IMG/VR virus record: IMGVR_UViG_3300037517_000123
Coordinates: 1-20,454 of that record
From: a virus
Length of the DNA: 20,454 nucleotides
Strand: one strand, 5' to 3'
The position numbers and the translations under genes are program-made. Positions 1,544-16,596 of the stretch are shown here, in pieces; the first letter of the stretch is position 1, and each line of letters opens with the position of its first letter. The notes under the pieces are model-generated. The model was not told the origin of the DNA and ran no database searches. It saw only the letters and a list, made by a program, of their open reading frames with translations.

Positions 1544-1828
1544 TTATTTCTCCATTGTTAAAGATTGCCAAGTGATTGACCAGTCTTGTTTGGTTTTATG
1601 TTTGTTAAACTCTCTGGACACTTCTCCACCCTCTAAGTATACCCCACCCCAAACACCCCACTCTTTACCAGAAATTCCTACCGCAAAACATGTTTTTGCT
1701 ACTGGACATTGCTGACACATTGAATCAACAATTGCCCTACCAGATTCGTTGTCTTCATATTTATCAAAATAAATATTTGTATCAAGACCTAAACATATTG
1801 CATCATCTTTCCATAAATGCTGTTTCAT
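1544..1828 (-). CDS. whiB: WhiB-like iron-sulfur transcription regulator
   Basis: From the ATG at 1828 the 94-residue product has the four WhiB cysteines at 12, 38, 41 and 47 (C-x2-C-x5-C for the last three) followed by GVWGG at 58-62 and the YLEGG turn. WhiB proteins bind a 4Fe-4S cluster through these cysteines and act with the principal sigma factor to regulate transcription; they are confined to actinobacteria and their phages. A basic C-terminal tail (REFNKHKTK) could contact DNA. I prefer the ATG at 1828, just after the upstream stop and with GAG about seven bases before it, over one at 1861 that would overlap the previous gene by 31 bases. Phage WhiB proteins can alter host WhiB-dependent expression and superinfection; that role here is inference. 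Confidence 0.9.
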   Translation of the reverse strand: MKQHLWKDDAICLGLDTNIYFDKYEDNESGRAIVDSMCQQCPVAKTCFAVGISGKEWGVWGGVYLEGGEVSREFNKHKTKQDWSITWQSLTMEK

Positions 1829-1830
1829 TT

Positions 1831-2040
1831 TTAATCTCGATACTTGTTTGGAATATCCCAACCATTACGACCAGGTGAATAAACTTTATGTACATACCAC
1901 TTATCTTTTACTCTAATACCCGTTGGAGATGTCTTTGCAATGTCTGATTCTTTTAAATCAATAACATCCCAACCATTCCAAACTAAGTTATTGTTTTTGG
2001 AAACAATTTTTTCCATTGTATTTAAACTTCTAATTAACAT
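1831..2040 (-). CDS. Small conserved phage protein, unknown function
   Basis: This 69-residue protein contains two echoing motifs, NLVWNGWDVIDLKES in the middle and SPGRNGWDIPNKY at the C-terminus, plus KDKWYVHKVY, all rich in Trp, Tyr and Gly and suggesting a small all-beta fold. I do not recognise a named family. The start is well supported: AGGGGG sits five bases before the ATG at 2040. The gene lies directly upstream of whiB with two bases between stop and start, so the pair is probably co-translated. No membrane span, cysteine cluster or signal peptide is visible. Confidence 0.75.
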   Translation of the reverse strand: MLIRSLNTMEKIVSKNNNLVWNGWDVIDLKESDIAKTSPTGIRVKDKWYVHKVYSPGRNGWDIPNKYRD

Positions 2041-2400: not shown

Positions 2401-2788
2401 TTCTTTTCCCATCCCTTAAACTATCTAGTATAAATAGCATCTTATCTAAGTCTACCTTTGACAAACTATCTATGTCTACTGGCTTTGTAGTGCTTTTTTG
2501 TACCTCACCATTAACAGCCTCTGCAACATAAAATTTATTGTTAGATACCCAGTAAGCCTGATTACCTAGAACAATAACCTTAATCATACCTTTTTGTCTA
2601 TGCTTTGTCAACTGCGTAGAGTTATCACTATTTGCTAAAGAAATTGAAAAAAAATGTTTTAACAATCTATGCACATCGCTTTGGCGAGACAAAGTCATTA
2701 AGGTTTTCTTTTTTTCAGTTTTCTTTGTTCTATTAATTATAAACCAAATAGCCCCTAATGTCAAGAATCCTATTATTAACTCTTGCAT
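2372..2788 (-). CDS. N-terminally membrane-anchored phage protein, unknown function
   Basis: The 138-residue product starts with one hydrophobic segment (about residues 3-19, ELIIGFLTLGAIWFIIN) followed by a strongly basic stretch RTKKTEKKK, the arrangement of an N-in anchor with a cytoplasmic body. The body has MIKVIVLGNQAYWVSNNKFYVAEAVNGE at about 68-95, likely beta-rich, and a C-terminal helix VDLDKMLFILDSLRDGKR. I do not recognise a family. No clear Shine-Dalgarno sequence is seen before the ATG at 2788. The sequence TATAATG overlaps that ATG, which is not usable as a minus-10 box for this start. Its 3' end overlaps the next gene. Confidence 0.72.
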   Translation of the reverse strand: MQELIIGFLTLGAIWFIINRTKKTEKKKTLMTLSRQSDVHRLLKHFFSISLANSDNSTQLTKHRQKGMIKVIVLGNQAYWVSNNKFYVAEAVNGEVQKSTTKPVDIDSLSKVDLDKMLFILDSLRDGKRNDRGSSGNQ

Positions 2789-2800
2789 TATAGGACTACT

Positions 2801-2974
2801 TTATTTTTTACCTGTATTAGATTTACTGTTTGCTTGTAGTTCTACAGTGTCTTGAAGTGCAGTAATCCTATTTAACTTTATTTGCAATTGCAATAAATTA
2901 AATTCAAGATCTACACTTTTTTGTTTATAAAAAATAACTAATTGCTTTATTTCTTCTATACTTAAATCCTCCAC
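2801..2974 (-). CDS. Small coiled-coil protein with GTG start
   Basis: A 57-residue frame starts at GTG with AGGGGT five bases before it and only two bases after the upstream stop. The product reads (M)EDLSIEEIKQLVIFYKQK, then KSVDLEFNLLQLQIKLNRITALQDTVELQ, a continuous amphipathic helix with Leu/Ile at heptad spacing, and ends in a polar tail NSKSNTGKK. It probably forms a coiled coil; no function can be assigned. The gene fills what would otherwise be a 188-base gap between its neighbours. The strong ribosome site and the good helix make it credible despite its length. Confidence 0.68.
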   Translation of the reverse strand: MEDLSIEEIKQLVIFYKQKSVDLEFNLLQLQIKLNRITALQDTVELQANSKSNTGKK

Positions 2975-2976
2975 TT

Positions 2977-3348
2977 TTACCCCTTTCTGAAACTAAATGG
3001 ACTTCCGTTCCAAACCTTTTCTACCTGCTTTTTTTCTCTTTCAACAATAGCACGACTCCACGCAAATCCTGCATCTCCGCCCCAAGCCTCCCACATAATT
3101 CTTCCGTTAGATGGAAACTCTGGACCATCGTAAAAACCTTTTCCTTTTTTATCTACTTCGTGACGGGAAAAGAAAGAGAACATTCTTTTAACAGTACTAA
3201 GAGACATTGCTCTACCAGCAACTATATCTGTTGCTCTACCCCAACCTACTGGAGTTCCAGCACCTGTTGCCTTACCATCTTCTTTCCATTTTAAAGCACG
3301 ACGAGCAGCGGCTTTCATACCAGCGTTTGGTGTATATGTATCAGCCAT
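2977..3348 (-). CDS. Conserved phage protein with basic N-terminus and WGGDAG motif
   Basis: From the ATG at 3348 the 123 residues begin MADTYTPNAGMKAAARRALK, then GWGRATDIVAGRAMSLSTVKRMFSFFSRHEVDKKGKGF at about 38-74, SNGRIMWEAWGGDAGFAWS at about 82-100. This combination (basic helix, RxMxxFFxRHxVDK, WxxWGGDAGxxWS) recurs in tailed-phage proteins encoded among head and portal genes, either alone or as a domain of a larger polypeptide; its activity is not established to my knowledge. The ATG at 3348 overlaps the preceding Lys-rich gene by eight bases (ATGGCTGA). A GTG 33 bases further upstream is open but would overlap that gene more and has no better ribosome site. Confidence 0.75.
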   Translation of the reverse strand: MADTYTPNAGMKAAARRALKWKEDGKATGAGTPVGWGRATDIVAGRAMSLSTVKRMFSFFSRHEVDKKGKGFYDGPEFPSNGRIMWEAWGGDAGFAWSRAIVEREKKQVEKVWNGSPFSFRKG

Positions 3349-3451
3349 TTTTTTTGTTCTTCTTTTCTTGTTTTGCAACACGTTTTTCTTTAAGAGTCAT
3401 CTTTGGCTCTTTCTTTTTGTTAACATTACCCTTTTGTTCTTTATTAGCCAT
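3341..3451 (-). CDS. 36-residue Lys-rich basic protein
   Basis: A complete small frame encodes MANKEQKGNVNKKKEPKM followed by TLKEKRVAKQEKKNKKNG, about 40 percent lysine with no acidic patch apart from isolated Glu. Such short Lys-rich proteins are found beside head-gene clusters in many actinophages, and could bind nucleic acid or a capsid surface; that role is inference. It overlaps both neighbours by eight bases in matching junctions (ATGGCTAA upstream, ATGGCTGA downstream), which is strong positional support. GGTGG lies several bases before the ATG, inside the upstream gene. Confidence 0.65.
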   Translation of the reverse strand: MANKEQKGNVNKKKEPKMTLKEKRVAKQEKKNKKNG

Positions 3452-3602
3452 TGCTTACCACCCTTTTTTGTTTTGTTTTATATGGACCTAAGTCTGCCTT
3501 TACGCTACCGTCTTTTCTTAAACGAACAATCTTACCGTCTTTAATTTGCATTGGGTTAAACCCGTGATTTTTAAAATAAGATCCTGAAGACTTTTTAGAC
3601 AT
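3444..3602 (-). CDS. Small basic phage protein, unknown function
   Basis: This 52-residue frame begins MSKKSSGSYFKNHGFNPMQI and continues KDGKIVRLRKDGSVKADLGPYK, ending KRVVSNG. It looks like a short beta hairpin (GKIVRLRKDGSVKADLG) with basic ends; I do not recognise a family. The start shares one base with the stop of the 314-residue gene (TAATG), and the stop overlaps the next start by eight bases, placing it firmly in the operon. No clear Shine-Dalgarno sequence is present, so coupling to the upstream gene is the likely means of initiation. Confidence 0.68.
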   Translation of the reverse strand: MSKKSSGSYFKNHGFNPMQIKDGKIVRLRKDGSVKADLGPYKTKQKRVVSNG

Positions 3603-4546
3603 TATTTTATTAAATCCCTTGGATCAAAAATGCCACCATTCCAAATACCTTTGGTAATTTCTTTTTCTGCTTTATAAGTTCCACCACGACGTTTGTATTC
3701 TTGTACTACCCAAGAATTAGCAACTGCAGATGGATATACATCAAATTTATCTTTTGCTGCTTGCACAACTCTTGCGTACAATTTTGGATTTGATGGTGTT
3801 GAACCACCTCTACGTGGTTTAATAAAGTCATCGTAGTTTGGCTTTTTTGCCTTATCCATTTCCATAGTTTCTCCTTTTTTAGCAGGAACACAGTTAGGAA
3901 CCATGCGCCCATCCTTTTCTTTCATTCCTTGTTGTTCATAACCAACCCAACATGCCTTTTGCATGTTATCCCATTTATCCATTTCCTCATCATCTGAGTA
4001 ATAAGATTTACTAATTTCTTCATCTGACTTTCCAATTTGAGTGTTATACATTTGCATCATAGTTTCAGGATCTGCTGTTGACGGAATTCCAGATCCGTTA
4101 GAACCCATTTCAACTACAAGATCTACTGATACAGATAGTGATTCAATCCTAATAACATCAGACATACGGTGATAAGAAACATATGGTTTTTCTTCCCAAG
4201 CGCCATCTTCTTCTTCATATTCACGAACAATAACTGGCTTATCGTTTTCCATGTATTCCATAGAATACTCTGATCCTGGCAATCCAAGCAATCCTGAATT
4301 AGTCATTACGTACTCAACACGACCAACCATAATTTTATCATCTTCGCCCATGTACATTACAAAATCGCCTTCTTTAATTTCATGCATACTTTTTCCTATG
4401 TTACCTTCGGAACGATTAATTGCATAAATTTGTGCTGCTGCTTCACTACGAGTTTTGTGACAGCCCATAACTTCATTTGTACCCTCTTTTAAAGCAGGAT
4501 AGCCTGAACAACCAAATGAACCCTTAGCACCTATACGATATGGCAT
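3602..4546 (-). CDS. 314-residue multidomain phage protein (DUF5872-like C-terminus)
   Basis: Several separate short modules can be seen. Residues 1-50 contain MPYRIGAKGSFGCSGYPAL and GCHKTRSEAAAQIYAINRSE, a motif common at the edges of phage head proteins. Residues 55-150 (EGDFVMYMGEDDKIMVGRVEY and following) look like a small beta-barrel. Residues about 205-232 (KACWVGYEQQGMKEKDGRM, then PNCVP) form a Cys-containing module. The C-terminal segment KLYARVVQAAKDKFDVYPSA followed by ANSWVVQEYKRRGG (about 260-295) resembles DUF5872-type modules. The middle is acidic and probably disordered. These modules occur in structural or capsid-maturation regions of phages, but no enzymatic motif is evident. 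A TATAAT box lies exactly six bases before the ATG, so the message may be leaderless; no Shine-Dalgarno sequence is seen. Confidence 0.72.
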   Translation of the reverse strand: MPYRIGAKGSFGCSGYPALKEGTNEVMGCHKTRSEAAAQIYAINRSEGNIGKSMHEIKEGDFVMYMGEDDKIMVGRVEYVMTNSGLLGLPGSEYSMEYMENDKPVIVREYEEEDGAWEEKPYVSYHRMSDVIRIESLSVSVDLVVEMGSNGSGIPSTADPETMMQMYNTQIGKSDEEISKSYYSDDEEMDKWDNMQKACWVGYEQQGMKEKDGRMVPNCVPAKKGETMEMDKAKKPNYDDFIKPRRGGSTPSNPKLYARVVQAAKDKFDVYPSAVANSWVVQEYKRRGGTYKAEKEITKGIWNGGIFDPRDLIK

Positions 4547-6055: not shown

Positions 6056-6084
6056 ATTATACAGTGTTAGTTACTTTTTTGCAA
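6056..6084 (-). promoter_or_regulatory. Candidate promoter TTGCAA-N17-TATAAT for fmdB
   Basis: The -35-like TTGCAA (6084-6079) and the perfect -10 TATAAT (6061-6056) are separated by exactly 17 bases. It overlaps the 3' end of hsp20. Transcription would begin near 6049 and leave a leader of about 58 bases containing the hairpin at 6011-6043. Confidence 0.6.
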
Positions 6085-6502
6085 CTTTGATAGCAATTTC
6101 CTTTGGCTTTTTATCTTCTGGAATAATGCGATCAATGTCAATGTGTAACATACCATCTTTCATTTCAGCACCAGTTACTTCCATATATTCACCAAGTGCA
6201 AATGTGCGGGTAAATTTTCTACCAGCAATGCCTTTATGAACAACCTCAGCATCTGTAGCCTCTACTAGTTCTCCCTTGACAATCAATGTTCCATTATCTA
6301 TAGATACATTAATATCATCTTTAGAAAATCCAGCAACGGCTAAAGATAGTTTATATTTATCTTCATTTAATTTAATAATGTCGTATGGCGGATATGCCTG
6401 ACGTGTTGCTAGATTATGTACTGCATTTAATCGGTCCAATTCACGATTGAAACCAATAAAAAATGGATCCTTAAAAAGATCCAGTGTAAATGAACTTACC
6501 AT
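6071..6502 (-). CDS. Small heat-shock protein (Hsp20/alpha-crystallin)
   Basis: This 143-residue protein has a short N-terminal arm (FTLDLFKDPFFIGFNRELDRL) and an alpha-crystallin domain from about residue 38 (YPPYDIIKLNEDKYKLSLAVAG) through the beta-7 region GRKFTRTFALGEYMEVTGAEM and GMLHIDID. The C-terminal extension contains an IAI tripeptide (I-x-I), which links dimers into oligomers in this family. It resembles IbpA-type ATP-independent chaperones that hold unfolding proteins. Similar genes occur in other phages, where they may help fold virion proteins or protect the host during infection. AAGGAG lies seven bases before the ATG. It has its own extended -10 promoter with an inverted repeat at the start site. 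Confidence 0.95.
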   Translation of the reverse strand: MVSSFTLDLFKDPFFIGFNRELDRLNAVHNLATRQAYPPYDIIKLNEDKYKLSLAVAGFSKDDINVSIDNGTLIVKGELVEATDAEVVHKGIAGRKFTRTFALGEYMEVTGAEMKDGMLHIDIDRIIPEDKKPKEIAIKVAKK

Positions 6503-6571: not shown

Positions 6572-6580
6572 AATTTTTAG

Positions 6581-6653
6581 TACCTCCAACGGAATTCGAA
6601 TCCGTGTTACCGCCGTGAAAGGGCGGTGTCCTAGGCCCCTAGACGATGGAGGC
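6581..6653 (-). tRNA. tRNA-Glu (anticodon TTC)
   Basis: The 73-base sequence folds as a full cloverleaf: acceptor GCCTCCA with TGGAGGT, D-arm with AGGGGCCT, anticodon stem CCGCC/GGCGG around loop CTTTCAC (anticodon TTC), and T-arm ACGGA-TTCGAAT-TCCGT. The anticodon arm is nearly identical to bacterial tRNA-Glu. The discriminator is A and no CCA is encoded, so host CCA-adding enzyme is needed. It reads GAA and GAG. Confidence 0.95.
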
Positions 6654-6657
6654 TTAG

Positions 6658-6730
6658 AGCAGAAAACGGGACTCGAACCCGCAACATCTACCTTGGCAAG
6701 GTAGTACTCTACCAATTGAGTTATTTCTGC
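6658..6730 (-). tRNA. tRNA-Gly (anticodon GCC)
   Basis: The 73-base sequence forms acceptor GCAGAAA/TTTCTGC, D-stem ACTC/GAGT, anticodon stem CTACC/GGTAG with loop TTGCCAA (anticodon GCC), a 5-base variable loop and T-arm GCGGG-TTCGAGT-CCCGT. The discriminator is T, as usual for tRNA-Gly. CCA is not encoded. Only four bases separate it from tRNA-Glu, so the two are made from one transcript. It reads GGC and GGT. Confidence 0.95.
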
Positions 6731-6743
6731 ATTTTAATATTTT

Positions 6744-6962
6744 TTAATTATTCTTTATTTTAATTACTACTTGACAAGGGTCTCCACCCTCTTCCCATTC
6801 TTGGGCTTCTTCATCACTCATGTATGGATCTCCATCATGAGTGTTACAGAACGGTTCTGTTACCCATCCCCGCTCAATTCCATTAGTTAACCAAATCTCA
6901 AACTCATCAAGACTTGATGCTTCATCTTGTAGATCTTTTAATATATCATCAAAGTTTGCCAT
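6744..6962 (-). CDS. Small acidic conserved protein of actinobacteria and actinophages
   Basis: The 72-residue product is strongly acidic, with LTNGIERGWVTEPFCNTHDG at about 25-44, MSDEEAQEWEEGGDPC at about 48-63 and a final strand VVIKIKN. The motif W-V-x-x-P-F-C-x-T-H-D-G followed by acidic residues and GGDPC is one I have seen in small actinobacterial and actinophage proteins; the cysteines and histidine may bind a metal. Function unknown. TTGACG-N17-TATAAT ends six bases before the ATG and there is no Shine-Dalgarno sequence, so the mRNA is probably leaderless. Transcription would continue into the two tRNAs directly downstream. Confidence 0.8.
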   Translation of the reverse strand: MANFDDILKDLQDEASSLDEFEIWLTNGIERGWVTEPFCNTHDGDPYMSDEEAQEWEEGGDPCQVVIKIKNN

Positions 6963-6968
6963 ATATAA

Positions 6969-6997
6969 ATTATACTCTTAAATGCTTACTACGTCAA
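6969..6997 (-). promoter_or_regulatory. Strong promoter TTGACG-N17-TATAAT, leaderless type
   Basis: TTGACG (6997-6992) and TATAAT (6974-6969) are 17 bases apart. The ATG at 6962 follows after exactly six bases, which puts the expected first transcribed base on the A of the start codon. It drives the 72-residue protein and the tRNA pair. The -35 lies within the end of the upstream peptidase gene. Confidence 0.75.
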
Positions 6998-7502
6998 CTG
7001 GACCCATACAGGATGGGCTAAATTTAATAGCAGAACTTACCGCTCCCACAACTCTCTTACGAGGATCTTTAGATTTTTCGGTGGCATTTAGATATCCATA
7101 AGCATATTCAGCCCCAGAACCCATTGCTAAATAATCTAAATTATACTTAGATAAAGACATATCAACTGCATTGTGCTCATATATTTGTCCTTTAACACAA
7201 ATAATTAAACCAAGATCAGCCTCTTTGCCAGTGTCAACCCACCAGTCATTATAAAAATTTTTAAGTTGTTTAATAAACTTAGTTTGCATAAACTTATCTA
7301 TGTCTTTAATGTCTGGTATATATGGATTAAAATTATAACGAATGCGTTCTCCGTCTAGGGCACCCGCATATCCAAGTAAATATGGACCAAGTTTCCAAAC
7401 CTTTGGTGCTGTTAAAGAAAGTATTGTATTATCATCTGATGCGCCACGATCTCCAGCCATATATACTTTGCCTTCATGACGAACTACAGCCAAGACTGTC
7501 AT
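6978..7502 (-). CDS. HslV/proteasome beta-like Ntn-hydrolase peptidase
   Basis: The product is 174 residues, the size of HslV. Removing the initiator Met exposes Thr as residue 1 (M-TVLAVVRHEGKVYMAGDRG). Counting from that Thr, Asp falls at 17 (AGD) and Lys at 33 (APKVWKLG), the exact spacing of the catalytic Thr1, Asp17 and Lys33 of HslV and proteasome beta subunits. GYAGALDG and YLAMGSGAEYAYG match the core strands and the GSG turn near residue 129. It should self-assemble into a ring peptidase. No HslU, ARC/Mpa or other unfoldase is visible in the window, so the partner is unknown. GAGGGG lies nine bases before the ATG behind a strong promoter of its own. Confidence 0.88.
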   Translation of the reverse strand: MTVLAVVRHEGKVYMAGDRGASDDNTILSLTAPKVWKLGPYLLGYAGALDGERIRYNFNPYIPDIKDIDKFMQTKFIKQLKNFYNDWWVDTGKEADLGLIICVKGQIYEHNAVDMSLSKYNLDYLAMGSGAEYAYGYLNATEKSKDPRKRVVGAVSSAIKFSPSCMGPVDVVSI

Positions 7503-7530
7503 ATAAGAATCCCCTCAGAGTATATATTTA

Positions 7531-7559
7531 AGTATACCAAACCCTTTTTACTTAGTCAA
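7531..7559 (-). promoter_or_regulatory. Sigma70-type promoter TTGACT-N17-TATACT for the HslV-like gene
   Basis: TTGACT (7559-7554) and TATACT (7536-7531) are separated by 17 bases, and TGG precedes the -10 (extended form). Transcription would start near 7524, leaving a 22-base leader containing GAGGGG. It lies in the 63-base gap after the endolysin gene. Confidence 0.8.
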
Positions 7560-8943: not shown

Positions 8944-11535
8944 TTATCTCCTTCTTCTAGGTGCAGTAGCAACAATTAATTGACCAGCAATAATTGTTAC
9001 AACCACAATATCTTCTGCTTTTTCACGTTCTGGAATAGACATGTCAGCACCCATGCTAAGTAGTGCTTTGCCTAATTCACATTTTTGTTCTTCTGTCAAA
9101 CCTTCAATTGCTTCATCTGGATTAAAACAAGTAGCAACCGCATCTAATAATGCTGCTGGACTTTCTAATACAAGCAATGCTGAGGCCACTTCTGCAGTAA
9201 TAACTACAGGATTACCGTTAACATCTTCTCTTACCTCTACTGGAATTGTAGGAGGAAGATCACGATATTCAAGTCCCGCCGATTCTATGTTTGCAGCAGT
9301 TACTGGTGCTCCTTCTGCTGATGATACCAATACGTCTGCAACTAAATCTTTTTCTGCCAAGGTAAATGTACCGTCTTCAGTTAAAGCCTCTGACAAATTA
9401 ACAACTTCTGCTGTTGTTATTTCTCCATCTGCAGATAACATTTCTGTAATAAACTCTGCTTCTGCCTCTGTTATTCCACCCTCTGATAATGTTGATGAAA
9501 CTTCTGCAGCAATTTCTTCAGATACTTCTCCACCATTAGCAATCGCCTCTAAAACTTCGGTAACTTCAGAAGCATCCAAACCACTATCTGAAACCAAATC
9601 ACTAACTATATCTTGCACTTCTTCTACAGATAAGGTATCATTATCTTGTGCAATTTCTTCAAAAGAATCCTGACTTTCTTCAAGAATATTTTCTAGTTCA
9701 TCGTTGGATGAAGATTCATCAGATTCAGGTGTATCCGTTTCAGGAGATTCAGTTTCTTCGGAAGGCACTTCTTCAGCAGGAGTTTCCTCTGCAGGAGTTT
9801 CTTCTATCTCTGTACTCTCCTCTTCAGTCGGAGTGGTCAAATCTGGTAAAGTTTGTTCAGGCGCATAAATAAAAGATGGTTGTGACGGAGCCTCAATAAT
9901 TTCTTCTTCTGGTGCGGGTATAGAAATAACAACCTCTGTATACTCACTTACAGGTCCTGACCAGTTAGCAACTCTAACAGTATAGGTAGCACCTTCTGTC
10001 AAGCCAGTTAGTTCTATAGATTCTGGAGCGCCGTCTGTATTATAAGTGCCACCCTCATATGGATTTTCTGCATCTGGGTCATCTGTTATTACTTGATAGA
10101 ACCAAGTGTTTGCTGTGTATCCTTCTGGTAACTCTGGTGCAATAACAACTGTTGTTCCTTCAATTACTGGCTCTAATAATGTTGGTGCTGGAGTAGGAAT
10201 ATTATTATTAATAGCAGTGATTAATTCAGTTGCGTTAGTTGTTAATGTAGTTTGAAGAGTATTCTTTGTAGATACCGCTGAGTTTACGGTATTACTTAAA
10301 GATGTAGTATTAATAGCATTTATTGCTGATGTGTTTATAGTATTTTGAGAAACTACTGGTGTAAGACTTGAATTTAATTGTATAATAGTTGCATTTGCTG
10401 CATCTACTGCTGCCTGAACTGTTTCTGTATTTGGATCTACATACGGTGTAAATTCTGAACCTTGGCTTATTTGTCCAGCAAATCCTGATCCTACATTTGT
10501 ATCTTCAATAGGAGTAATTGCTCCATTTGTTGTTTCTCTATAATTAAATCTTGCTTGATCTGGTATTGGACCTACAGCAGTTACATTTGCTATCCACGCT
10601 CCATCGTTTGGATTAACATCAGCATTAAATCTTACCTGTACCATCTGTGTAGAGGCATCTTGTTGAGGAAATGGCCTTAAGTCCCAAGCAATATCTAGAC
10701 TTGTTCCAGTAGTTGAATATGTAATTCCTGTTCCTGTACTCCAAGTAGTCCAATCCCATCCAGCAATAGAAACTGACGGTGCATCAGGAGTTTGATAAAA
10801 AATCCATCCTTGATCTACACCAAATGTTATTGTTGCATTTGATCCAACATAAACATCATTGTATAAAATTCCCCCCATCTGCATTCCAAAAGGTAGGTTC
10901 ATCCTTACGCCAGCATCATCTACTCCAGCAAGAACGTTTGTAGTAGTTCCAATAGTTGCTTGTAAATTATTAACTGCTGTTTGGGCAGCATCAATGGCAA
11001 GGTTTGCTTGAGTTAGTTCAGTTTGTGCTGTTGTTTGTGCGGTTGCTGCTGCTGTTTTTGCTGTAATGGCTTCAGATGTTTCTACTTGAGCAGTTGATGT
11101 GTCAATGTTATTTATAGAGATTTGGGCTGTAACAACAGTATCTTTAGCATCTTGAACTACCTGCGAACTTTGATCTATTGGTGTAACAGATAAATCTATA
11201 GCACTAATTGTGGCTGTGGCTGTGTCTACTAAGGCTACATTTGATTGTGCTACCGAAACTGTTGCAGTCAATGTCTCTACTGCTGCCTGAGCCTCTACCC
11301 TTTCAGCAACTGCTACTGCTATAGTGGCTGTGGCAGTATCCGTGGCTGCAATAGCCTGCTGGACCTCTGTAGTGGCTGTTGCAAGGGCTGTATTAACTGC
11401 TTGTTGAGCAGGGCTAACAACAACTTGTTCTTGATTTTCTGTAGCGTGAGCACGATCAGGAGCCATTATTCCAAAAATTGTTAAGCACAGTCCCACCCCA
11501 AAGGCTAATATTAGTCTTCGTTTGAGATTGGTCAA
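8944..11535 (-). CDS. 863-residue secreted multidomain surface-type protein
   Basis: It starts with a Sec signal peptide (MTNLKRRLILAFGVGLCLTI, ending AHA at 29-31). Next come an Ala/Thr-rich coiled region (about 40-200), a beta-rich domain (about 205-340) with MQMGGILYNDVYVGSNATITFG, loosely like a NIDO-type domain, a second coiled region (about 360-440), and a fibronectin III-like domain (about 450-545, ending TYTVRVANWSGPVS). An acidic Pro/Glu/Thr stretch with PAEE repeats (about 555-620) leads to helical repeats with EF-hand-like turns (about 650-739), and the end is a hydrophobic segment VVVTIIAGQLIVATAP plus RRRR. It is probably exported and membrane- or wall-retained, or a virion fibre. 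The start is TTG with AGGAG twelve bases upstream; no in-frame ATG lies upstream before a stop. It has its own promoter behind a terminator. Confidence 0.8.
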   Translation of the reverse strand: MTNLKRRLILAFGVGLCLTIFGIMAPDRAHATENQEQVVVSPAQQAVNTALATATTEVQQAIAATDTATATIAVAVAERVEAQAAVETLTATVSVAQSNVALVDTATATISAIDLSVTPIDQSSQVVQDAKDTVVTAQISINNIDTSTAQVETSEAITAKTAAATAQTTAQTELTQANLAIDAAQTAVNNLQATIGTTTNVLAGVDDAGVRMNLPFGMQMGGILYNDVYVGSNATITFGVDQGWIFYQTPDAPSVSIAGWDWTTWSTGTGITYSTTGTSLDIAWDLRPFPQQDASTQMVQVRFNADVNPNDGAWIANVTAVGPIPDQARFNYRETTNGAITPIEDTNVGSGFAGQISQGSEFTPYVDPNTETVQAAVDAANATIIQLNSSLTPVVSQNTINTSAINAINTTSLSNTVNSAVSTKNTLQTTLTTNATELITAINNNIPTPAPTLLEPVIEGTTVVIAPELPEGYTANTWFYQVITDDPDAENPYEGGTYNTDGAPESIELTGLTEGATYTVRVANWSGPVSEYTEVVISIPAPEEEIIEAPSQPSFIYAPEQTLPDLTTPTEEESTEIEETPAEETPAEEVPSEETESPETDTPESDESSSNDELENILEESQDSFEEIAQDNDTLSVEEVQDIVSDLVSDSGLDASEVTEVLEAIANGGEVSEEIAAEVSSTLSEGGITEAEAEFITEMLSADGEITTAEVVNLSEALTEDGTFTLAEKDLVADVLVSSAEGAPVTAANIESAGLEYRDLPPTIPVEVREDVNGNPVVITAEVASALLVLESPAALLDAVATCFNPDEAIEGLTEEQKCELGKALLSMGADMSIPEREKAEDIVVVTIIAGQLIVATAPRRRR

Positions 11536-11640: not shown

Positions 11641-13239
11641 TTAAGCCTTAACCTTTTTCTGAATCTTTAGTACAAGATTAGTTAAGGTTGTAATTAATGT
11701 TCTAAGTTGTCCAACAGTCACAGCCAATGCAGCCACAGCAGCAAGTGCTTGTGATGCTGAATCAGTTACTGTTGCAGTTGCAGACACCTTTACTTGACCT
11801 GCTACTGGTAAATCAGTTCCACCAGTTGCACTGATAGTAACTGTACCTGCAGATAATGGCATGTAAACCTTGTAAGTCTTTACGCCATTTGCGTCAGTTG
11901 TAATAGATGTTGCAGTAATTGTGTCGCTTGATCCACCAAAAGAATAACTTGTAGTAATTCCTGTAGAAGCAAGTAGGTTAGCATATGTCTTTCCAGACAA
12001 TACCAAACCTGTTGCATCAACTGGTGAAAGAGTAATTGTGGCTTGCTCTCCTGCTACATAGTTTGCTTTATCAAAAGCCAACTTAATAGAAGAAACCGCA
12101 GCCTCTACACGCACAGTTACTGTGTCTGCAGAGATTGTTCCACTCTTTACTACTACACCTGCTGAACCAGTTTTAACACCAGCCAAAGAGAACAATGCTT
12201 CACCATTAGAGATAGAAGCAGTTGTTGCTGAGTTGCTGATTACTGTAAGATCACTTGAAGTTGCTGTTAATGTTCCTGCTCCTACAACTACGCCAGCAGC
12301 GTCATATGCTACGACAGAAAGTGCATCTGCATTAGAACCTACAGCAATTGTTGGCTTCTTTACAGTTGTAACAACTTTAGCAATATCGCCATAAAATGTT
12401 ACCTTTTCTGTTGCTAAGATTGCGCCAGATGCTGAAGTAAGTGTAATTGTTCCTACTCCAGATGTACCGTCAGGAAATACACCAATGTAACTTCCTGCGG
12501 GAATAACTAATGATCTACCAAGAGCGGTAATTGTTGCATGGTTTGTACCATGTCCCAACATTCCTGCTCCTGAAATTGTTGCTGTAATTGATTCTGAAGC
12601 AGAAGCATTAGCAGCATTCTTTTGAGTTAAAACTATAACTGCTGAGGCATCAGAAGACACAGCCTTTGAAGCATACACAGTTGCATCTGTTGTTGCTGAG
12701 ATTGTTTCACCAGCATTTAAAATAGATGTTGTATAAGCAGTTGATGCCTTAAGATCTGGAGCGGTAACAGTAACTGTCCATGTAAGGGCAGCAGATGTAA
12801 CTGAACCAGATGCGCTAGTCAATGTAGGAATAAATCTAACTACATATGTTCCAGCCACGCTAGGCACATTAAGTGATGCTGTTAACTTTGCAGTAACATA
12901 ACCAGTAGTATTAGTTGCTGGTGAAATTGCTGCAGTTCTTGTATCTGATGATAACGCTACTGTTGCGCTAGATGTTTCTGTAACAGCAAACTGTGGAACG
13001 CTAGCAGTAGATGGGGCAGACAACACTGCAGATATTACCGAAACGGTATCTCCAATTGATGTTCCCAAAAATGATACTGACACAACTGCTGTTGCAGTCT
13101 CGCCAGGATTGATTGTATCTGCTACGGCATCAATGGTGACAACGTCAGCATATACTGTAGCCTGTGTCGGAAGTGCCGACATCACGCCAAGTGTCAAGGC
13201 TGCAGCCAAGACTGTGGCAAGTTTCTTAAATGAATTCAT
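11641..13239 (-). CDS. 532-residue secreted S-layer-like protein
   Basis: The protein has a clear Sec signal peptide (MNSFKKLATVLAAALTLGVM, with PTQA near 24-27), then about 450 residues of Ala/Ser/Thr/Val-rich beta repeats resembling Ig-like or invasin-type folds (for example INPGETATAVVSVSF, NAGETISATTDATVYASK, YVAGEQATITLSPVD). It ends in a short alpha-helical coil ALAAVAALAVTVGQL...NLVLKIQKKVKA. This layout (signal, beta repeats, short C-terminal coil with basic end) is that of S-layer proteins of freshwater actinobacteria, so it may be host-derived; I infer this from layout only. The DNA is visibly richer in G and C than that around it, partly because of Ala codons. AAGGAG is four to five bases before the ATG. 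A strong terminator follows. It could instead be a virion surface protein, though a signal peptide argues against that. Confidence 0.78.
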   Translation of the reverse strand: MNSFKKLATVLAAALTLGVMSALPTQATVYADVVTIDAVADTINPGETATAVVSVSFLGTSIGDTVSVISAVLSAPSTASVPQFAVTETSSATVALSSDTRTAAISPATNTTGYVTAKLTASLNVPSVAGTYVVRFIPTLTSASGSVTSAALTWTVTVTAPDLKASTAYTTSILNAGETISATTDATVYASKAVSSDASAVIVLTQKNAANASASESITATISGAGMLGHGTNHATITALGRSLVIPAGSYIGVFPDGTSGVGTITLTSASGAILATEKVTFYGDIAKVVTTVKKPTIAVGSNADALSVVAYDAAGVVVGAGTLTATSSDLTVISNSATTASISNGEALFSLAGVKTGSAGVVVKSGTISADTVTVRVEAAVSSIKLAFDKANYVAGEQATITLSPVDATGLVLSGKTYANLLASTGITTSYSFGGSSDTITATSITTDANGVKTYKVYMPLSAGTVTISATGGTDLPVAGQVKVSATATVTDSASQALAAVAALAVTVGQLRTLITTLTNLVLKIQKKVKA

Positions 13240-15944: not shown

Positions 15945-15959
15945 AAGGTTATTTGTCAA
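15931..15959 (-). promoter_or_regulatory. Possible promoter TTGACA-N17-TAAACT
   Basis: A perfect TTGACA (15959-15954) is followed after 17 bases by TAAACT (15936-15931), with TGG before the -10. It overlaps the start of the HTH gene and would transcribe DUF3310 and the terminase genes. The lack of a T-A at the second -10 position lowers confidence. Confidence 0.35.
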
Positions 15960-16596
15960 CCTCTCCTGTATTAATATCATAATGATAACTATCTGAATCT
16001 TCAGTTATCCACTTAGAGGCATCTTCCACATCCCATTTTCTAGTATTGATAAGTCTATTAATCACAGGCTTTCCAGGCTTGGTAGTAAATGATGGTTCTA
16101 ATAAAAATACTCTGTTGTTTGGTTGTATAGCAAAGTTGCCATCATCTCTTTGTATAACGTGACCGCATTTATGCTGCCCTGGATTTTCTGAGTATCCATC
16201 ATCAAGTCTATTAGAATCAGGATTGTGCCAATCAAGAGTAAACAAATACTTGCCAGATATTTTTGTCTTTGTCCTGTCCATATAGGTCATACGCATGTTT
16301 GCAAGGTTTGCAAATTTAGTTGTAGTAACAAAAGGACTAAATGAATTCCATAAAACAAGATTGTGTATATCTTCTTCTGGTACATTTGGTTTAGTACAAA
16401 ATGCATTAATAGGCATTCTCCACCAGATACCGCCATCCTCCATTAAAAAATGAAACAATGGGCTACGATTTTGAACGCTAGCCACACCAAAAATTACACA
16501 AGGAAAATATTGATCGTGACTATCTATTTGATCTCTTAAAAAATTACCACGAACATAACATTCAATTGGTGGTATGTTTGCATTTAACTCTGGCAT
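15949..16596 (-). CDS. Conserved phage protein, unknown function
   Basis: The 215-residue product starts MPELNANIPPIECYVRGNFL and contains CVIFGVASVQNRSPLFHFLME, GGIWWRMPINAFC, and HNLVLWNSFSPFV, with many aromatic residues and an apparently all-beta core; later parts include SGKYLFTLDWHNPDSN and GHVIQRDDGNFAIQPNNRV. I recognise it only as a type of protein present in environmental phages near recombination and packaging genes. There is no signal peptide, membrane span or enzyme motif I can name. AGGAG is eight bases before the ATG, which shares one base with the stop of the RuvC-like gene. Confidence 0.75.
   Translation of the reverse strand: MPELNANIPPIECYVRGNFLRDQIDSHDQYFPCVIFGVASVQNRSPLFHFLMEDGGIWWRMPINAFCTKPNVPEEDIHNLVLWNSFSPFVTTTKFANLANMRMTYMDRTKTKISGKYLFTLDWHNPDSNRLDDGYSENPGQHKCGHVIQRDDGNFAIQPNNRVFLLEPSFTTKPGKPVINRLINTRKWDVEDASKWITEDSDSYHYDINTGEVDK

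Follow-up and report, generated by a model that had tools for sequence, protein, structure and literature searches.

The window analysed here, a stretch of viral DNA of 20,454 bases that makes up an IMG/VR virus record, encodes a compact protein of the proteasome fold. We favor the view, at a probability of about one half, that this protein is a proteasome-like threonine peptidase acting without a dedicated phage unfoldase in a phage of Actinobacteria. That the protein belongs to the proteasome/HslV-type Ntn-hydrolases is nearly certain from its family matches and its predicted fold. The preliminary description of this DNA had reported an HslV/proteasome-like peptidase gene without an unfoldase in a phage, and in these general terms the report is borne out by the fold, the catalytic triad, and the recovery of 353 relatives in one scan and at least 488 in another. 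The coordinates of the gene, of its catalytic codons, and of the surrounding features are given in Table 1.

Table 1. Positions in the 20,454-base window of the peptidase gene, its key codons, its expression signals, and nearby genes
Feature	Position	Strand	Basis or remark
Proteasome/HslV-like Ntn-hydrolase gene	6978..7502	minus	ATG at 7502, stop at 6978; 174 aa = Met + 173-residue mature chain; profile matches, model, conservation
Thr1 codon, predicted nucleophile once Met is removed	7497..7499	minus	sequence; T in 161/161 phage copies
Asp17 codon	7449..7451	minus	sequence; D in 160/161, E in L126
Lys33 codon	7401..7403	minus	sequence; K in 161/161
Asp113 codon	7161..7163	minus	D in 161/161 phage copies; not Asp in two HslV rows
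Ser128 codon of GSG turn (proteasome Ser129 equivalent)	7116..7118	minus	S in 159/161
Sigma-70 promoter TTGACT-17-TATACT with TG (extended -10)	7531..7559	minus	28 bases 5' of start
Ribosome-binding-site-like GAGGGG	7511..7516	minus	sequence
72-aa acidic ORF (CNTHDGD...GGDPC), downstream neighbor	6744..6962	minus	sequence; recurs in relatives
tRNA-Glu(ttc) 6580-6653 and tRNA-Gly(gcc) 6657-6730 (context)	6580..6730	minus	
Hsp20 small heat-shock protein (context)	6071..6502	minus	PF00011 E 1.2e-18; phrog_432
WhiB-type protein (context; actinobacterial host marker)	1544..1861	minus	PF02467 43.8 bits vs 23.6

PHROG 1040, the 'peptidase HslV family', matched the window protein over residues 1-174 with an E value of 5.6e-18, and the Pfam Proteasome profile (PF00227) was passed narrowly, at 22.6 bits against a gathering cut-off of 22.4. 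The NCBIfam HslV model TIGR03692 gave 23.8 bits, below its cut-off of 157.75, and scores with the NCBIfam archaeal and bacterial proteasome models fell far under theirs. Structure prediction and superposition on HslV and proteasome beta, which the preliminary description had proposed as a check, were run on a single chain. The AlphaFold2 model, made from an input alignment of 42 sequences, reached a pLDDT of 94.6 and a pTM of 0.89 and predicts an Ntn-hydrolase fold. Among solved folds, Foldseek placed the betaproteobacterial proteasome homologue BPH (PDB 5ovs, 5ovt, and 5ovu; E 3.4e-13) and HslV (E 1.1e-12) nearest to the model. With VIA-align the model superimposed on HslV with a Z score of 19.2 (163 residues, rmsd 2.9), on BPH with 19.1 (165 residues, rmsd 2.6), and on a bacterial proteasome beta chain with 17.9 (167 residues, rmsd 2.9). 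Judged on the predicted structure, HslV and BPH are tied as the nearest folds. A single-sequence search of the PDB had yeast beta5 at the top (E 0.0017), with BPH not among the 60 matches listed, and a profile search had BPH at the top, an order that was partly built in since the alignment included four BPH-like Ser1 bacterial sequences. The shared fold does not demonstrate activity.

Thr1, Asp17, and Lys33 fall at the positions expected from proteasome/HslV numbering and the GSG turn is present as Gly127-Ser128-Gly129 of the mature chain, both as first described. One correction concerns the spacing, which is not universally exact: in four relatives (L039, L073, L075, and L080) the stretch from Thr1 to Asp17 is two residues longer. 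Asp113 may have a role resembling that of proteasome Asp114; in the alignment used for the tree its column holds Asp in 14 of 14 rows of the window's clade, 18 of 22 other phage or myxobacterial rows, 5 of 7 BPH/Ser1 rows, and neither of the 2 HslV rows. Gly47 of the proteasome oxyanion hole has no exact counterpart: the window protein has Gly46-Ala47, and position 47 is variable among the copies. The open frame spans 178 codons and the mature chain 173, which leaves few open codons 5' of the start and no room for a long propeptide.

The relatives come from two scans of IMG/VR. The best 80 of the 353 confirmed in the first are 91-99% identical to the window protein, and the second, with a wider alignment, confirmed at least 488, of which the best 80, ranked by nearness to the first sequence of that alignment, are 23-76% identical to the window protein. 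The window and these 160 loci, 103 of them unique, formed the conservation set, and as the search patterns held parts of the conserved motifs, the counts that follow are partly built in. Thr1, Lys33, and Asp113 are found in all 161 copies, Asp17 in 160, Ser128 in 159, and Gly129 in 154, the second Gly of the turn missing from 7. The sole copy with Glu for the catalytic Asp17 (L126, 3367-3879) keeps Thr1, Lys33, and the GSG turn. A start codon stands immediately 5' of the Thr1 codon in 161 of 161 copies (152 ATG, 7 TTG, and 2 GTG), with an additional in-frame start upstream in 28 of them. For the close relatives, 52 distinct coding sequences gave a median dN/dS of 0.054 over the 1304 of 1326 possible pairs with dS of 0.05-1.5, which points to strong purifying selection on the coding sequence.

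Outside these scans, a search of INPHARED with the window protein returned 129 records at E 0.01, mostly Salmonella and Escherichia phages, and no actinobacterial host was among the matches listed. A plasmid search gave no match. In bacterial genomes an exact-peptide search found no relative, and a degenerate-pattern search found 15 distant relatives. Homologues beginning MTC lie on MAG contigs of 16-210 kb assigned to Myxococcota and related bacteria (L086-L089, L091, and L093).

The tree of 45 rows, rooted at its midpoint for drawing, splits into nine rows of HslV, BPH, and Ser1-type bacterial sequences (99/97) versus 36 phage and MAG-contig rows (99/97). The window's relatives form a 14-row clade within the latter group (96/92), with L126 and L109 included. 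The homologues from Myxococcota and related MAG contigs (L086-L089 and L091) also fall in the 36-row clade; L086-L089 are 23-26% identical to the window protein. HslV (ClpQ) resembles the window protein in fold and triad numbering, but the name HslV used in the preliminary description could not be kept. TIGR03692 stays below its cut-off and the tree sets the protein apart from HslV. HslV also has a basic pore cluster of Arg86, Arg89, and Lys90, whereas by alignment all 14 rows of the clade lack a basic residue there. Mutation of the basic pore cluster is described as crippling HslV (PMC5777263). No HslU, the partner of HslV, was found in 16 phage records, the window among them; as these are possibly fragments, it may lie outside them.

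BPH is like the window protein in fold and triad and, in the published account of it, in having no propeptide and no known unfoldase (PMC5777263). The window protein differs from it in sequence (18-22% identity), in its branch of the tree, and in having a shorter pore loop in the alignment, and because BPH groups with the Ser1 bacterial sequences (97/77) we rejected membership of the window protein in BPH. The same account reports Met removal by mass spectrometry and binding of epoxomicin to Thr1, and yet purified BPH, a ring with all of its triad in place, showed no activity toward peptides or casein, for which a cofactor was proposed (PMC5777263). For this reason we retain the intact triad from the earlier portrayal of the protein as a working threonine peptidase but not the activity, and by this analogy the Thr1/Asp17/Lys33 triad alone would be insufficient to infer it.

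Phage proteins of PHROG 1040 are a further point of comparison. Those of S124 (a T5-like Salmonella phage), Tunturi_5, and phiTY18 also have Thr1, Asp17, and Lys33, whereas pT24 has Ser1, and all four are only 24-28% identical to the window protein. They are separate from the window protein's branch of the tree and have other neighboring genes. Fuchs et al. (2021) unite AAH, CPH, PPH, BPH, and HslV as group I proteasome homologues (PMC8665760), with which the window protein shares the compact subunit and the triad, and they describe AAH, CPH, and PPH in phages. Their PPH has about 140 residues and no helix H2 (PMC8665760), whereas the window protein has 173 residues and, in the model, a second helix at 67-85; membership in PPH was rejected on this basis. 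For AAH, compared here by description only, that survey came upon no Actinobacteria-specific phage (PMC8665760), whereas the present clade is found in phages that carry WhiB.

No unfoldase was found in the window, in agreement with the preliminary description: HslU is missing from this record, and the ORFs that were scanned with profiles, a part of all ORFs, included no AAA+ unfoldase. An AAA unfoldase was also sought beyond the window, as had been suggested there, with PF07724 (AAA_2), which we take to be the domain of HslU and ClpX. It was absent from all 39 related records, namely 15 close and 24 further ones of 15-343 kb, seven of the latter lying outside the clade, while the profile was positive in 14 of 14 control genomes. 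As none of the searched records was rated 90% complete and they are possibly fragments, an unfoldase may sit outside them. Matches to PF00004 in 4 of the 15 close records were below the cut-off and lie at loci that hold an APS-kinase-like ORF, and we rejected them as a phage unfoldase. Fuchs et al., who describe proteasome homologues in phages, report no AAA+ interactors that co-occur (PMC8665760).

We consider a stand-alone mechanism the likeliest of several. If BPH is a guide, Met would be removed by the host's methionine aminopeptidase, leaving the amino group of Thr1 free, and the subunits would close into a homo-oligomeric ring or double ring of 6- or 7-fold symmetry with the active sites inside. 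Entry would be restricted to peptides and to unfolded or flexible proteins, so that no dedicated phage unfoldase would be needed, and the self-compartmentalised peptidase may then trim host or phage proteins and peptides during infection. Activity without a partner cannot, by the same analogy, be assumed, because purified BPH was inert with its triad and ring intact. Since BPH undergoes Met removal and binds epoxomicin at Thr1 and is nevertheless inert, a second reading stands beside the first, tentatively and at well below even odds. The protein would be a latent peptidase whose ring is opened and supplied with substrates by a docked host AAA+ unfoldase or other activator, and the phage would in this way redirect host proteolysis. 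The cofactor proposed for BPH and the lack of a phage-coded AAA_2 unfoldase in the 39 records (possibly fragments) are both consistent with such an arrangement. The missing basic pore cluster, however, makes coupling of the HslU type unlikely.

The phage of the window very probably infects Actinobacteria, conceivably freshwater Nanopelagicales. Of 20 records counted to the window's clade, six by the tree and 14 by at least 56% identity to the window, 16 had a WhiB match above the cut-off, versus 0 of 7 virus records outside the clade; the other 4 of the 20 had no match above the cut-off. The whiB gene is regarded as an actinophage marker in the literature (PMC10202952, PMC6802176). Foldseek gave a match in Gordonia phage Daredevil (E 1.7e-10), so at least one cultured actinophage has a predicted protein of the proteasome fold, and a claim to the first such protein in actinophages was dropped on this account. 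Through this large, conserved branch in phages with WhiB, Actinobacteria, some members of which have proteasomes, join the hosts of phages with this proteasome-like family.

Transcription of the peptidase gene very likely starts at a promoter of its own and is carried out by the main polymerase of the host, as judged from the conservation of the site in the upstream regions of relatives. After regions shorter than 100 bases and duplicates were dropped, 105 upstream regions were kept. Among the close regions 41 of 47, and among the distant ones 48 of 58, had a promoter-type site matching at least 10 of 12 consensus bases, mostly 26-33 bases from the start, against approximately 3% of mononucleotide-shuffled upstreams. 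Of the 105, 103 also have a ribosome-binding-site-like motif no more than 18 nt from the start. Local promoter-like sites barely exceed those in shuffles (24 vs 17.4 +/- 4.4), and in a scan of the whole window the peptidase promoter was among the three top-scoring sites. Its description as one of the best promoters of the window was therefore correct, and the site is kept in relatives.

The downstream 72-aa acidic ORF is a steadier neighbor of the peptidase than Hsp20. At least 400 bases of downstream sequence were available at 79 of 80 close and 75 of 80 distant loci, and the ORF was present at 69 of the 79 and 67 of the 75, lying within about 20 bases of the peptidase gene in 115 of these 136. 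No match was found at the remaining 10 close and 8 distant loci, one of the latter (L109) being in the clade. The reverse search, starting from the 72-aa ORF, found the peptidase at 74 of 74 loci with room for it among the nearest 80 of 407, a weakly informative result. Aligning 33 of these ORFs showed C39, H42, C63, W24, and W33 to be invariant. Pfam and PHROG gave no match for the ORF, its model is uninformative (pLDDT 60), and INPHARED gave nothing at E 0.01; a search of INPHARED with a relative of the ORF (L136) reached only Mycobacterium phage Aminay, at E 1 and in two records. The 72-aa protein is possibly a dedicated partner of the peptidase. We regard as improbable the more elaborate idea of a widespread, actinophage-specific two-gene unit, in which the peptidase and the acidic Cys/His protein, as adaptor, gate, or inhibitor of the ring, would be expressed from one strong and conserved promoter for unfoldase-free targeted proteolysis of host proteins. 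The Hsp20 gene, which had been taken to form a protein quality-control set with the peptidase, lies within the 4-kb flanks at 71 of 80 close loci and at no more than 12 of 80 distant ones; the link thus looks like local synteny, and the argument for such a set is weak. Endolysin-like genes are present on both sides.

Neighboring genes in other phages bear on what else the protein might do. In S124 the homologue comes after genes for ribonucleotide reductase, dihydrofolate reductase, and thymidylate synthase, with RNase H also near, the homologue of Geobacillus virus E3 lies near dihydrofolate reductase and thymidylate synthase genes, and homologues in several other phages lie near nucleotide-metabolism or hypothetical genes. 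Settings of this kind would suit a proteasome-fold Ntn-hydrolase with a specific processing or transpeptidase role, perhaps on one host or defence protein, and the family described by Fuchs et al. has a barrel protease at one end of its range and connectase, a monomeric ligase, at the other (PMC8665760). The model, however, shows no connectase-like two-helix insertion between strands 3 and 4, and its layout is that of the ring-forming HslV and BPH, so that we consider a specific enzyme of this kind doubtful.

The preliminary description had also offered processing of virion proteins, and in the window the gene does adjoin the endolysin gene, with the terminase gene approximately 6 kb away. In phage PBECO4 genes annotated as virion-structural and a protease are found near the homologue. 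What speaks against a role in the maturation of the head by cleavage of its structural proteins is that 7 of 16 records, each of the seven longer than 56 kb, have a separate S78 prohead-protease match over the cut-off, although these matches extend over about 60 of 165 profile positions and the other nine records, including the window and records of 87.6 and 62.8 kb, had no match over the cut-off. At least several of these phages thus appear to have a separate candidate for head maturation, and this, together with the nucleotide-metabolism and hypothetical genes near several homologues in other phages, makes virion processing very unlikely. A catalytically dead decoy, a single beta-like subunit with which the phage could disturb a host ring by co-assembly, is likewise very unlikely, as it would need neither the nearly invariant triad nor a start codon before Thr1 in every copy.

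Phages carrying an HslV-like gene on its own have been described before (PMC7823757, PMC8665760). The Salmonella jumbo phage pSal-SNUABM-04 is described as having an HslV gene without HslU (PMC7823757), which may be the same situation as here, and a proteasome-like gene is listed for an Alteromonas phage (PMC7289586). What is new here is a large actinophage branch with a conserved promoter, usually beside the 72-aa acidic ORF. Many phages have proteasome homologues, and in the literature found a function is demonstrated for none of them; in the open-licence literature no experimental work on a phage member came to light. The finding is ordinary in kind and useful as a case: with its conserved promoter and compact size, the gene is well suited to asking whether a proteasome-type ring can work unfoldase-free.

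Several other genes deserve mention. Beside WhiB, an ORF on the minus strand (784-1542) has an adenylylsulfate-kinase-like N-terminal and a nicotinamide-nucleotide-adenylyltransferase-like C-terminal part, with copies of 79-80% identity in four related records. A minus-strand ORF at 15949-16596 (215 aa) matches PHROG 3704, 'ferredoxin', with E 1.1e-53, a label that may not fit. Between the terminase and endolysin genes, also on the minus strand, lie ORFs for Ala/Thr-rich proteins of 863 aa (8944-11535) and 532 aa (11641-13239); neither matched Pfam, nor did the first match PHROG, and from their signal-peptide-like starts both look like secreted or surface-located proteins. Among the phage homologues, that of Vibrio phage VPMCC14 (L273, 2498-3460) has 320 aa and a long C-terminal extension that recalls the extended RPC type described by Fuchs et al. 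(PMC8665760). In Aeromonas phage 4L372XY (L275) two adjacent genes, 2498-3049 and 3067-3894, are each annotated 'peptidase HslV family', and a mixed ring is possible.
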